Positions 26,181 through 32,489 of a DNA stretch of 64,000 nt are shown here, in pieces. The notes beneath the pieces are model-generated. The model ran no database searches and had not been told where the DNA came from. It saw nothing but the letters and a program-made list of their open reading frames with translations. Each line of letters begins with the position of its first letter. Within the stretch, counting starts at the first letter, position 1. Location: contig JAHIUW010000005.1 in NCBI GenBank assembly GCA_018816865.1, positions 1 to 64,000 on the forward strand. Reading direction: 5' to 3'. The translations under genes and the position numbers were made by a program. The DNA is from Pseudomonadota bacterium. GTDB lineage: Bacteria > Desulfobacterota > Desulfovibrionia > Desulfovibrionales > Desulfovibrionaceae.

Positions 26181-26802
26181 CTTGCTCCTCCAGGTAGCGC
26201 TCCAGAAAATACGCCAGCACTGCATCGGCCTGCTTGGCCGCGGCCACTCCCACCATGGGCGACAGCGGCGGGGTGGAGTCCGAGCATTCGGTGGTCATGT
26301 CGCCCACCAGGATGAAATCGTCGCGCAGGCGGCGGGTGACGATGGCGTCGGCCCGGCCGCAGCCGCCCATACCCGAGGCTGCCACGAAGAGCTTGTCCTG
26401 CATGAGCATGGCCTCGGCGAGCATCTTCTTGGCTGCCGGGTCGTCCAGGGCCTCCACCACCACGTCGCAGTGCGCAAAGAGCTCGGGGGCGTTGTCCTTG
26501 TTCAGGCGGAGGTTGTGGGCGGTGATCTGGGCATCGGGATTGATGGCCCACAGGTTCTCGGACAGGGCATCCACCTTGGCCAGACCCACCTGCTTCAGGA
26601 AGTAGAACTGGCGGTTCAGGTTGGATGGTTCCACGGTGTCGAAATCCGCGATGACCAGCCGCACGAACCCGGAGCGCACCAGATGCATGGCACAGTTGGA
26701 GCCCAGCCCCCCGGCCCCGGCGATGCCGATGGTCACTTGCTGCAGATGTCTCAAGACGTCCTCGCCCAGGGTGGCGGCCATGCCTTGTTCAGCGATGTTC
26801 AT
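26173..26802 (-). CDS. thiF: Sulfur-carrier ThiS adenylyltransferase
   Basis: 209 aa from the ATG at 26802, which overlaps the thiH stop (ATGA). It is an E1-like enzyme that activates the C-terminus of ThiS with ATP for sulfur transfer. The nucleotide-binding motif is IGIAGAGGLGSNCA, followed by DFDTVEPSNLNRQFYF, both typical of ThiF/MoeB. It is shorter than E. coli ThiF and lacks the zinc-binding Cys pairs, as in the short ThiF forms found beside ThiH in anaerobes. Confidence 0.9.
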   Translation of the reverse strand: MNIAEQGMAATLGEDVLRHLQQVTIGIAGAGGLGSNCAMHLVRSGFVRLVIADFDTVEPSNLNRQFYFLKQVGLAKVDALSENLWAINPDAQITAHNLRLNKDNAPELFAHCDVVVEALDDPAAKKMLAEAMLMQDKLFVAASGMGGCGRADAIVTRRLRDDFILVGDMTTECSDSTPPLSPMVGVAAAKQADAVLAYFLERYLEEQDD

Positions 26803-27929
26803 CGAGCGGCCTCCGGGCGTGGTGAGCCGCTGATGGACTCCCAATCCTTGAAGACGGGCTGGTAGCCCCGGGCCTTCAGGGCCGCGCACATCTCGTCTGC
26901 GCTACGCGAATCGGAGATCTCGAACTGGGCTGTTTCGTTGCCCTTGGTGTGTCCGCCCACGGCTGTGGTGACGCCGGCGGACATGCGCGTCACCCCCAGC
27001 GGCACGATGTTGTCACGGAAGGCCGGGGCCTCGCGGGTGGAAATGGTGATGGACAGTCGCGGCAAGAACAGCCGCAGCGCCATCATGATCTGTACCAGAT
27101 GCTGGTCCTCGACCACGTAGGCGGGCTGGAATTCTCCGGTGTGGGGCCGCATGCGCGGCAGGGACACGGCGATGTCCACCCCGGGGTAGGCGTGCAGCAG
27201 GTGCGCGGCGTGCATGCCCGTCAAGAACGACTCGCGCCGCCAATCGTCCAGGCCCAGCAGTCCGCCCAGGTTGACCACGCGCATCCCGGCGCGGCAGCCC
27301 CGATCCGGGGCCTCCAGACGGTAGGCATAGTCGCGTTTGGGACCGGCGGGGTGCAGGATCGCATACAGTTCGGGGTTGTAGGTCTCCTGAAAGATGGTCA
27401 ACCCGTCCACCCCGGCGCGGATCAGCCGGGCGTAGTCTGCCTCGTCCATGGGGAAGACCTCGATGGACACCGAAGGAAAGATCGGAGCCAGCACCGCCAG
27501 GGCCTGTTCCAGATAGTCCACCCCCGCCTTGTTGGGGGCCTCTCCGGTGAGGATCAGCAGGTGCTTCATGCCGGTGGCCGCGATGGCCCGGGCCTCGATG
27601 AGCAGTTCGTCCATGGTCAGCTGGGAGCGCGGGATGTCGTTGCGCGCGTTGAATCCGCAGTACACGCAGTGGTTGCTGCAGTGGTTGGCCAGATAGAGGG
27701 GGGTGAACAGTTGGATGGTGCGCCCGAAATGCTGCACCGTGCGCTTGTGTGCCTCTTGGGCCATGGCCTCCAGGTGCGTCTCTGCCGCCGGGGACAGCAG
27801 CGCCATGAAGTCCTCGGGCCGCAGGGAGACCTTGTTTAGGGCACGCAACACGGCGTTCTCGTCCTGAGTGCCGATCAGTTCGTCCAGGGGTTGGCTGTTC
27901 AGCTCCTGACAGATGGGCAAAAAACTCAT
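26799..27929 (-). CDS. thiH: 2-iminoacetate synthase (radical SAM)
   Basis: A 376-aa radical SAM enzyme that cleaves tyrosine to give dehydroglycine for the thiazole ring. The cluster-binding motif is Cys84-x3-Cys88-x2-Cys91 ([11 protein letters not shown]). Other ThiH features are [18 protein letters not shown] and [20 protein letters not shown]. It is coupled on both sides: its start overlaps the thiG stop by 4 nt and its stop overlaps the thiF start. Use of ThiH rather than ThiO fits an anaerobe. Confidence 0.95.
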
Positions 27930-28720: not shown

Positions 28721-28921
28721 TCAGCCCCCGCCCACGAAGCTCAGGAGTTCCAGGCGATCGCCGTCGGCCAGTTGGGTGGTTGCGAAGGCTTCGCCCTGGA
28801 TGATGACACCGTTATTTTCCGCAACGACGGTGGTCGGGTCGAGTTGTCTGTGCAACAACAGAGTCAGCACTGTGGTCAGCGGCGGACACGTAGTTTCCTG
28901 TCCGTTGATGGTGACGATCAT
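28721..28921 (-). CDS. thiS: Sulfur carrier protein ThiS
   Basis: 66 aa with the ubiquitin-like fold and the required C-terminal Gly-Gly (LLSFVGGG at the end), to which sulfur is attached as a thiocarboxylate. It is the first gene of the thi operon, directly downstream of the TPP riboswitch and its terminator. Confidence 0.93.
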   Translation of the reverse strand: MIVTINGQETTCPPLTTVLTLLLHRQLDPTTVVAENNGVIIQGEAFATTQLADGDRLELLSFVGGG

Positions 28922-29321: not shown

Positions 29322-29600
29322 TTATTTCTGGCTGGCAAACCAGGTGGCGATGTCGGCGATGTCCTGGTCGGACAGGCCGGCGGCCTTCTTGTTCATGAAC
29401 TTGTTGATGCGCTTTCCGGACTTGAAGTCCAAAAGTGTCTGGGTGATCTTTTCCTCGGGCCAGCCATCCAGCTCGCCCTTGTGGCACTTGCAGCCCTGGG
29501 CCAGTTTTTCGCCGTTTGTGGCGTTGCCCGCGGCGAACAGGTTGGCGCCGGTGAAGACCATCATTCCCAGAATAAACGTGATGACGAGCTTTTTGAGCAT
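29322..29600 (-). CDS. Small periplasmic c-type cytochrome with atypical CKCH haem motif
   Basis: 92 aa with a signal peptide (LVITFILGMMVFTGANLFAA) and a class I cytochrome c layout. The haem motif sits near the N-terminus of the mature part, then KRINKFMNKKAAGLSDQDIADIATWFASQ supplies the Met region and the usual C-terminal helix. The haem motif reads GCKCHKG, with one residue between the cysteines instead of two. The ATG at 29600 follows GGAGGACGC. Likely a periplasmic electron carrier, but whether both cysteines bind haem is open. Confidence 0.8.
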   Translation of the reverse strand: MLKKLVITFILGMMVFTGANLFAAGNATNGEKLAQGCKCHKGELDGWPEEKITQTLLDFKSGKRINKFMNKKAAGLSDQDIADIATWFASQK

Positions 29601-29708
29601 GCGTCCTCCATGAAGCTGCTGAGGGTGGCGGGGCACGAGCCCCTTGCAAACAGGCCCCCGATGGGGCAGATTTTTTCGCGAGTGATATTTATACCAAAGG
29701 CGGTATTG

Positions 29709-31550
29709 ATGGGCTATCAAAACATGCAGGAATGTCTGCTCGCTCTGGAGAAACGGGGGCAGCTGATTCGCATCCGCGAGGAGCTGGACCCGGACATCGA
29801 GATCGGGGCAGTGCAGCGGCGCGTTTTCCATGCGGGTGGGCCTGCGTTGTTGTTCGAGAACGTGCGCGGGACTGGGTTCCCCATGGTGGCCAATGTCTTT
29901 GGCACCCTGGAACGGGTGCGCTTTCTGTTCCGCGACACCCTGCCGATTCTGGAGCGGTTGTTCCGGCTGAAGGTGGATCCCCTGGCCGCGCTGAAACAGC
30001 CGTGGAAGTATTTGCAGGTCCCCCAGGCACTGTATCACACCTTGCCCAAGACCCGGCAGGACGGGCCGGTCATGGCGCATACGACCACCATTTCCCGTTT
30101 GCCGCACCTGAAATCCTGGCCCATGGACGGCGGTGCCTACGTGACCCTGCCGCAGGTCTATTCCGAGAGTCCGGCCAAACCAGGGTTCGGGGCTTCCAAC
30201 CTGGGCATGTACCGGGTGCAGTTGACGGGCAACGCCTACGAGCCCGACCGTGAGGTGGGCCTGCATTACCAGATCCATCGGGGGCTGGGGCATCATCACG
30301 CCGAGGCCATCGCCCGGGGCGAATCCCTGCCCGTGAACGTCTTCATCGGCGGTCCTCCGGCCATGACCATGGCCGCGGTCATGCCCCTGCCCGACGGGAT
30401 GCCCGAGTTGTTCTTTGCCGGGGCTCTGGCCGGGCACCGTATGCAGATGGTCAAGCGCCCGGGGATGCTGCCCATGTTGGCCCAGGCTGATTTCTGCATC
30501 CAGGGACACATCTCGGCCCGGGGCGAGAAACCCGAGGGGCCGTTCGGTGACCATCTGGGTTATTACAGTCTGGCCCACGATTTCCCGGTGCTCAGCGTGG
30601 ATGCGGTGTACCACCGCGCGGGCGCGGTCTGGCCGTTCACTACGGTGGGGCGGCCTCCGCAGGAAGACACCATGTTCGGCACCTTCATCCACGAGCTGAC
30701 GGCAGAGCTGGTGCCCACGGTTTTCTCGGGAGTGCACGAGGTCCATGCCGTGGACGCGGCAGGGGTGCATCCGCTGCTGCTGGCCGTGGGCAGCGAGCGC
30801 TACGTGCCCTACGCCGAGGAGCGTAGCCCCCAGGAGCTGTTGACCAACGGTCTGTCCTTGTTGGGCAGTTCCCAGACCTCACTCTCCAAATACGTGCTCA
30901 TCGCCGCCCGAGAGGACGACAGCCGCCTGAGCGCCCATCAGATCCCCGACTTCTTCCGGCACATGCTGGAGCGCGTGGACCTGTCGCGCGACCTGCACTT
31001 CATGACCCGCACCACCATGGATACCCTGGATTATTCGGGCATCAGTCTGAACCAGGGCTCCAAGCTGCTCTGGGCCTCGTGCGGATCCAGGCGGCGGACC
31101 CTGGCCACGACCCCACCCGCCGACCTGACCCTGCCCCAGGGCTTCTCGGACCCGCGGGTCTTTGCCCCGGGCATCCTGGTGTTGCGTGGGCCGGCCCATC
31201 AGGTTGGCCGCGACGAGCACGACCCGCATCTGGAGCGGCTGGCCGGTGGATTGCAGCAGTCCGGAGGCCTGGAAGGGTTCCCGCTGGTGGTCTGCGTGGA
31301 CGACGCCGAATTCAGCGCCAGTAACTGGGAGAATTTCCTGTGGGTGGCCTTCACCCGCTCGGACCCGGCCACGGACATCTACGGTGCAGGCGCCTTCACC
31401 CATTGCAAGCACTGGGGCTGCACCGGACCGATGGTCATCGACGCCCGGCTGAAGACCTACCATGCCCCGGCCCTGGAAGATGATCCGCAAGTGGAACGGC
31501 GGGTGGACGCCCTGGGCGCCCCTGGCGGGCCGCTGCAGGGCATCATCTGA
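29709..31550 (+). CDS. UbiD-family decarboxylase
   Basis: 613 aa. It belongs to the UbiD/prFMN-dependent decarboxylase family: LLFENVRGTGFPMVANVFGT near the N-terminus, GMYRVQLTGN, the GLHYQIHRGLGHHH region, VFIGGPPAMTMAAVMPLPDG and later PEGPFGDHLGYYS with the acidic residue of the active site. The length fits the long UbiD proteins of menaquinone (futalosine) biosynthesis in anaerobes, which is the likeliest role. Aromatic-acid decarboxylation is an alternative. The start at 29709 follows AAAGGCGG; an ATG at 29724 is also possible. The UbiX-type prenyltransferase is not in this window. Confidence 0.85.
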   Translation: MGYQNMQECLLALEKRGQLIRIREELDPDIEIGAVQRRVFHAGGPALLFENVRGTGFPMVANVFGTLERVRFLFRDTLPILERLFRLKVDPLAALKQPWKYLQVPQALYHTLPKTRQDGPVMAHTTTISRLPHLKSWPMDGGAYVTLPQVYSESPAKPGFGASNLGMYRVQLTGNAYEPDREVGLHYQIHRGLGHHHAEAIARGESLPVNVFIGGPPAMTMAAVMPLPDGMPELFFAGALAGHRMQMVKRPGMLPMLAQADFCIQGHISARGEKPEGPFGDHLGYYSLAHDFPVLSVDAVYHRAGAVWPFTTVGRPPQEDTMFGTFIHELTAELVPTVFSGVHEVHAVDAAGVHPLLLAVGSERYVPYAEERSPQELLTNGLSLLGSSQTSLSKYVLIAAREDDSRLSAHQIPDFFRHMLERVDLSRDLHFMTRTTMDTLDYSGISLNQGSKLLWASCGSRRRTLATTPPADLTLPQGFSDPRVFAPGILVLRGPAHQVGRDEHDPHLERLAGGLQQSGGLEGFPLVVCVDDAEFSASNWENFLWVAFTRSDPATDIYGAGAFTHCKHWGCTGPMVIDARLKTYHAPALEDDPQVERRVDALGAPGGPLQGII

Positions 31551-31649: not shown

Positions 31650-32489
31650 ATGAATAGGTCTTTGATTGCCGCGGCCTTGGCCGCGCTGTTGCTGCCGGGT
31701 TGCGCCGGGCAGCTTTCGGATCAGGAGTTGGATCAGCGTATCCAAAAGACCCTGCGGGAGAATCCGCAGATCGTGCTGGAGGCCCTGGAGAACGATCCCG
31801 TGGCCATACTGGAGCTGGCCGAGGCCGGTTCCAAGGCCCGCCGCGCTCGTCAGGCCGAGAAGCAGTTCCTGGACAAGTTGGCCGATCCCCTGGACCCAAC
31901 CATCGATCTCCAACGCCCCATGCTGGGCGACGCGCAGGCCCCGATCACCGTGGTGGCCTATACGGATTTTTTGTGCGGCTACTGCGCCCAAGGCGCTAAG
32001 AACATTAAGGAACTCATGCGCCGTTATCCGGGCAAGATCCGTTACGTTGCCAAGCATGTGCCCATGTCCGAGACCGGGGAATTCGGGGCCAGGGTCTTCG
32101 AGGCCCTTGGGCTGCAGGACCCCGCGCTGGCCTGGGAGTTCTATGCGTCGGCCTTTGAGCGCCAGGACGAGGTGCGCCAGGCCGAGGACCAGCAGACCAA
32201 GTTGCTGGAGCTGGCCAGTCTGACGACAGGGGTTGATGCCGCGCGTCTGGCTCAGGAGCTGGGCGACGAGCGTCTGAGTGGTTTCGTGCGTGACGATTTT
32301 CTGGAATTCAAGAGCTATGGGTTTCGGGGGGTCCCCGTGTATCTCTACAACGGTGCGCCTTTGGAAGGCTCCATGCCTCTGGAATTTTTGGAAAAGGCTG
32401 TGGACCGCATCCTGAATGGCGAGGCATCCGCCCAGGGTGGAGATCTCGCTACTGAGGCCGGGGTCTGCCTGGACTGCCTGGATAAATAG
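31650..32489 (+). CDS. DsbA-like thioredoxin-fold lipoprotein
   Basis: 279 aa. A lipobox (LLPGC, Cys18) predicts a lipid-anchored periplasmic protein. A helical spacer precedes a DsbA/DsbG-like thioredoxin domain with active site Cys109-Gly-Tyr-Cys112 (YTDFLCGYCAQG) and the cis-Pro loop GFRGVPVYLYNG. It ends with an extra pair of cysteines (VCLDCLDK). It probably makes or isomerises disulfides in exported proteins. It is flanked by UbiD on the same strand (99-nt gap) and ended by a terminator. Confidence 0.85.
   Translation: MNRSLIAAALAALLLPGCAGQLSDQELDQRIQKTLRENPQIVLEALENDPVAILELAEAGSKARRARQAEKQFLDKLADPLDPTIDLQRPMLGDAQAPITVVAYTDFLCGYCAQGAKNIKELMRRYPGKIRYVAKHVPMSETGEFGARVFEALGLQDPALAWEFYASAFERQDEVRQAEDQQTKLLELASLTTGVDAARLAQELGDERLSGFVRDDFLEFKSYGFRGVPVYLYNGAPLEGSMPLEFLEKAVDRILNGEASAQGGDLATEAGVCLDCLDK

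Follow-up and report, generated by a model that had tools for sequence, protein, structure and literature searches.

A conserved class I-like cytochrome with a CX1CH haem site in one bacterial family

A gene predicted to encode an exported monohaem cytochrome was identified within the stretch of DNA analysed here (the window; 64,000 nucleotides), and the only haem site of its 92-aa product is GCKCHKG, with one residue between the two cysteines. Based on the modelled fold and the ligands read from sequence, this protein is best read as a class I cytochrome resembling the monohaem c4/c552/c554 proteins, with a natural CX1CH site, and its haem is probably bonded via both cysteines. We assign a probability of roughly 0.55 to the explanation as a whole, namely an exported class I cytochrome with a natural CX1CH site that is made by System I*, carries two thioethers and serves as an electron shuttle; the least certain step in this explanation is that both cysteines bond. 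Haem c attachment sites are, to our knowledge, assumed to follow CXnCH with n of at least two, a pattern that genome surveys use to count haem proteins. A search for CXCH or CX1CH haem sites found none in the open-licence literature, a search that could miss spelling variants and most subscription journals.

The coordinates of the cytochrome gene and its surroundings are given in Table 1. The translated product reads MLKKLVITF...GEKLAQGCKCHKGELDG...NKFMNKKAAGLSDQDIADIATWFASQK, followed by a stop. The original prediction had described CxCH as the only haem site and its codons as unambiguous; both statements were confirmed by the translation and by the four codons read at the site, and the motif type recurs in the close homologues described below. 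Within its own genome, the cytochrome has no second match at E 1. The reading frame of the cytochrome remains open for ~390 codons further, antisense to ubiD (29322-30770, minus strand); we take this long frame to be an ordinary high-GC shadow frame and not a longer protein.

Table 1. Features of the cytochrome locus, with positions in the window
Feature	Position	Strand	Basis or remark
CxCH cytochrome gene, 92 aa	29322..29600	(-)	predicted exported class I monohaem
Haem site C37-K38-C39-H40, codons TGC AAG TGC CAC	29481..29492	(-)	sequence; C37, C39 and H40 invariant in 14-row alignment
Met69, presumed distal haem ligand	29394..29396	(-)	invariant; aligned with c4/c552 Met
Predicted signal peptide, ~residues 1-24	29529..29600	(-)	KK n-region, hydrophobic core, ...NLFA-AG; end judged by eye
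Ribosome-binding site GGAGG, directly 5' of ATG	29605..29609	(-)	read by eye
UbiD-family decarboxylase, between cytochrome and DsbA-like gene	29709..31550	(+)	neighbour, not claimed as part
DsbA/Thioredoxin_4-type thiol oxidoreductase, active site FLCGYC	31650..32489	(+)	candidate partner, putative functional link
TPP riboswitch RF00059	29039-29139	(-)	74.7 bits; upstream of thiamine cluster
ThiS	28721-28921		Pfam
Radical SAM/BATS protein	26799-27929		Pfam

Homologues with E of 1e-4 or lower were detected in 26 of 288 genomes of the bacterial family, distributed over 7 of 44 genera. When the window protein is counted, 25 of these 26 close homologues carry CxCH, in six of the seven genera with a homologue, and the motif occurs as CACH (14 rows), CSCH (7), CKCH (2), CTCH (1) or CQCH (1). 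The original prediction had suggested a search for CxCH in orthologues and had allowed for the opposite outcome, in which orthologues all have CxxCH or the motif is a sequencing error; neither held, and CxxCH was found in a single homologue. This sole CxxCH member of the short-loop family (locus L088 in genome G174) has CEVCH within GCEVCHHKDLDG and two additional residues ahead of the first cysteine, and it is useful for comparison with the CxCH members.

The second genome examined from the genus of the window encodes a protein with 87% aa identity, the same GCKCHKG motif and the same gene neighbours. Between these two species, the first, second and third codon positions differ 8, 2 and 35 times, with dN of 0.068 and dS of 0.900, and on this basis the cytochrome is under strong purifying selection. 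Both motif cysteines and the motif histidine are present in 26/26 close homologues; from residue 21 onward, each row has exactly two cysteines, both within the motif, so that no alternative partner is available to Cys37 within the molecule. Across 14 aligned rows, G30, C37, C39, H40, G46, G62 and M69 do not vary. His40 and Met69, which are likewise invariant in an alignment of 36 rows (35 from CxxCH relatives), are the presumed axial ligands.

The conserved motif is accompanied by a shortened loop. The distance from the haem histidine to the glycine of the following L-x-G is 5-7 residues in all 26 close homologues and 14-18 residues in 69 of 80 distant relatives, a comparison in which the other 11 distant relatives were unscorable and slightly different search patterns served the two sets. 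The cytochrome carries two deletions, one of a single residue within the motif and one of about ten residues after it. Scores against the Pfam cytochrome models were 14.1 bits for PF00034 (gathering score 21.3) and 12.8 bits for PF13442 (gathering score 27), and at E 0.01 each model matched only 3 of 14 family members. Among NCBIfam models, PdsA (NF049874) alone gave an E under 1e-4 (2.1e-5), and its score was 24.5 bits where the cut-off is 330. Because the Pfam models miss their cut-offs and PdsA reaches so small a part of its own, routine annotation may not flag this protein.

AlphaFold2 produced a model from 36 sequences, without haem, at pLDDT 86; it contains a single helix across residues 27-44, motif included. 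The model superimposed on Colwellia cytochrome c (4o1w) with Z 13.0 and rmsd 0.9 A over 67 residues, and further matches were 1cno (Z 12.5) and 2zzs (Z 12.4), which together with 8smr_K span 12.3-12.5; the structural aligner cautions that Z up to ~13 may mean little for mostly helical models. Foldseek likewise ranked 4o1w at the top (E 1.6e-3, probability 1.00), with no match under 1e-3. The top-ranked chains are class I cytochromes, in agreement with the sequence search, and the family profile matched c4/c552 at 5e-20 versus c553 at 6.5e-5; by phmmer, the window protein matched no c553 entry at E 1. The original prediction had called the protein an otherwise normal class I cytochrome, and this description stood for the modelled fold and the axial ligands but not for the loop after CxCH, nor for the Pfam scores, all of which fall below cut-off. 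The protein would work like a class I cytochrome and belongs to that class by its modelled fold and presumed His/Met ligands, but it lacks CXXCH and does not reach the Pfam gathering scores.

We used a profile built from 14 of the 26 rows to search 348 genomes (59 genera) of the order; this analysis returned the same 26 strong matches (E 4e-30 or better; for the 14 profile rows, matches by construction) followed by 19 weak ones (1e-12 to 1e-8), and CxxCH is present in 19/19 of these weaker relatives. Among 395 genomes of the phylum, the profile added two matches at 1e-12, both with CxxCH, and a single-sequence search at 1e-6 matched four, family members only. Across 84,980 species genomes, 321 loci were confirmed; the 80 best of them (29-52% identity), which by record titles are mostly gammaproteobacteria and were retrieved with search patterns derived from one sequence, have CxxCH without exception. 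One plasmid record, a 39% match, lies outside these motif counts. Because the relatives examined outside the family all have CxxCH, CxCH is a trait of one family within the scope of these searches. The c553-type relatives, together with System I*, suggest that this family is Desulfovibrio-like.

A tree of 80 rows was built from the 26 short-loop proteins, the 19 weaker relatives and 35 distant sequences, the latter taken from 70 distant relatives with the motif inside the aligned piece. The CxCH rows do not form one clade in the best tree, which has 3 changes of CxCH, and 0% of 200 bootstrap trees place them together; well-supported branches require two or more changes, in a tree that rests on 82 columns (motif columns kept) with long branches meeting. 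The AU test did not reject a single clade, either for the 25 CxCH rows (p 0.37) or for the 26 short-loop rows (p 0.43). The tree would fit multiple origins or losses of CxCH. That the short loop is common to all 26 favours a single family, within which the G174 protein kept or regained CxxCH.

The haem attachment genes match System I*, as far as can be read from sequence. System I* forms holocytochrome without CcmH or CcmG in Desulfovibrio, according to the review PMC3601427, and the genomes analysed here resemble it in two respects. In 20/20 genomes tested, CcmE contains CPSKY, with Cys replacing the usual haem-binding His (read by eye), and in 0/9 genomes was CcmH found above the PF03918 cut-off, the one sub-threshold match (18.4 versus 25 bits, in G001) having a stop inside. 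ResB/CcsB of System II was found in 0/9 genomes at E 0.01. As the specific cause of CxCH, however, System I* is not supported: the same CcmE motif occurs in 4/4 tested genomes without a CxCH protein (G002, G037, G155 and G134), so that System I* is the setting of this cytochrome and not its explanation.

We examined whether the spacing permits two bonds using a stereochemical model of Cys-Xn-Cys-His in torsion space, with an idealised planar haem, two thioethers, Fe-His geometry, Ramachandran limits, both sulfurs on the His face and clash terms; the peptide is isolated, and the model leaves aside the remaining fold and thioether-carbon stereochemistry. At a cost under 1, a limit of our own choice, two-thioether solutions were obtained from 13/40 starts for n=1, 15/40 for n=2 and 0/40 for n=0, for which the best cost (CCH) was 1.86; a laxer run agreed. 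When the haem was flipped, 4/24 starts gave a solution for n=1. Several of the n=1 solutions rely on uncommon torsions. Since n=1 was solved almost as often as n=2, the spacing by itself does not forbid two bonds, and we lean toward two thioethers because the first cysteine is kept in 26/26 homologues, the mature protein has no other cysteine and both bonds are feasible in the model. Against two bonds, the fold model, which lacks haem, runs as a helix through the motif. Two residues spaced as i and i+2 face opposite sides of an ideal helix, which would favour one bond unless the turn is distorted.

The main rival explanation, which we regard as possible but clearly less probable, is that haem is attached only to Cys39, the cysteine adjoining the ligand His, and that Cys37 is conserved as a free thiol for some other role, such as sulfide or persulfide chemistry or site recognition by Ccm. 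The helix across the motif would turn Cys37 away from the haem, and c-type cytochromes with a single thioether occur in Euglenozoa; in the known cases, however, the first cysteine is lost, whereas here it is kept in every close homologue, and the local model allows two bonds on stereochemical grounds. The haem might instead be non-covalent, held by His and Met as in a b-type cytochrome, with Cys37 and Cys39 forming a redox-active CxC disulfide that is perhaps served by a DsbA-type protein. CxC disulfides are familiar in thiol chemistry and a DsbA-type gene lies near the cytochrome gene in 17/26 genomes, yet we judge this arrangement improbable, as the nearest relatives examined carry the c-type CxxCH, System I*-type CcmE occurs in every genome tested and cysteine loss is seen in 0/26 homologues.

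Pfam scores under cut-off are also what a decaying or non-functional cytochrome with a broken motif would give, but strong purifying selection, a ribosome-binding site and the retention of axial ligands and both cysteines across genera make such a relict very improbable. A sequencing or assembly error that deleted a codon is the least credible of these alternatives; nothing was found in its favour, and error and chance are both excluded because CKCH is kept in the second genome of the genus and CxCH is common to 25 separate genomes.

Under the explanation that we prefer, with both cysteines bonded, the apoprotein would be exported and kept reduced, and haem would be supplied by the System I* Ccm apparatus of the cell, in which CcmE has Cys replacing His. 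His40 and Met69 would bind the iron, and Cys37 and Cys39 would each add to one haem vinyl, so that two thioethers form at a turn that is slightly distorted; the holoprotein would then shuttle electrons in the periplasm. A DsbA-type protein encoded nearby might conceivably manage the Cys-x-Cys thiols ahead of haem attachment. We consider the chances about even that these proteins are a natural group of CX1CH cytochromes c, with a spacing one residue below the usual minimum, haem bonded to both cysteines and maturation by System I*, possibly with a DsbA-type thiol partner encoded alongside.

Among proteins of known structure, the cytochrome most resembles c552/c554 proteins and c4 domains (4o1w, 1cno, 2zzs and 6q2u), with a similar fold, His/Met ligands and C-terminal segment and with 34-45% identity in the aligned part; 4o1w, 1cno and 2zzs align to the model with Z 12.4-13.0 and rmsd 0.9-1.1 A, and 6q2u with Z 8.1 and 1.2 A. 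Whereas those proteins have CxxCH, the protein described here has CxCH, and its loop behind the motif is shorter by the ten or so residues noted above. Desulfovibrio c553 (1dvh and 1c53) is likewise a small class I cytochrome and gives a weak profile match; however, it has other loops and 19% identity to the window protein, which has CKCH. A clear match to c553 came from L136, one of the weaker relatives within the order and the only one compared with c553. The periplasmic dihaem shuttle PdsA matches over its second-half cytochrome domain, but it has two haem sites, whereas the window protein has one and falls far below the PdsA cut-off.

Mitochondrial cytochrome c of Euglenozoa has a single thioether at (A/F)xxCH, and the cytochrome described here would resemble it in single attachment if Cys39 alone bonds; in the Euglenozoan type, however, the first cysteine has been lost at an unchanged spacing, whereas here both cysteines are present and the spacing is shortened. 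Altered cysteine spacing is also known from CX3CH, CX4CH and CX15CH sites, but all of these are longer than two residues, and the CX1CH site is the only shorter one known to us. PMC11434368 and PMC12285233 report the CX3CH and CX15CH sites, respectively. A 2024 survey of Desulfovibrionaceae searched CXXCH and CXXXCH (PMC11434368), and a CxCH protein would therefore go uncounted in it. A conserved n=1 site provides a natural test of the recognition range of Ccm and of the response of haem geometry and haem potential to a tighter anchor, and one purified CxCH protein could answer the question of single versus double thioether.

The cytochrome gene adjoins a thiamine operon headed by the TPP riboswitch and a divergent UbiD-family gene; ThiG, ThiF and ThiE were read by eye within the thiamine cluster. 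The DsbA-type homologue is divergent from the cytochrome gene in the 17 genomes in which the two are close, and it lies elsewhere in the other nine. Measured by hand between matched stretches, its distance is 202-220 bp in 14/14 genomes of genus g39 and ~2.0-2.2 kb, beyond UbiD, in G000, G001 and G032. DsbA-type homologues also occur in 19/26 hand-picked genomes without the short-loop cytochrome. All 12 adjacent copies examined have an intact CxxC active site, which reads CPYC, CGYC or CAYC. In genus g39 there are at least two paralogous DsbA-type genes, and in 8/8 genomes with both copies examined, the adjacent copy has CPYC (for example, L163 and L164) and the distant copy has CHFC (for example, L202 and L195). 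CPYC is also found in the single, distant copies of G003, G004, G006 and G002. An obligatory partnership is unsupported, given the nine genomes without such a neighbour and the homologues in genomes without the cytochrome; because of these counts and the distant CPYC copies, we treat the DsbA-type gene as a lead only. The DsbA-type protein encoded in the window has a second CxxC at its C-terminus, within GVCLDCLDK, which is kept in the sister species.
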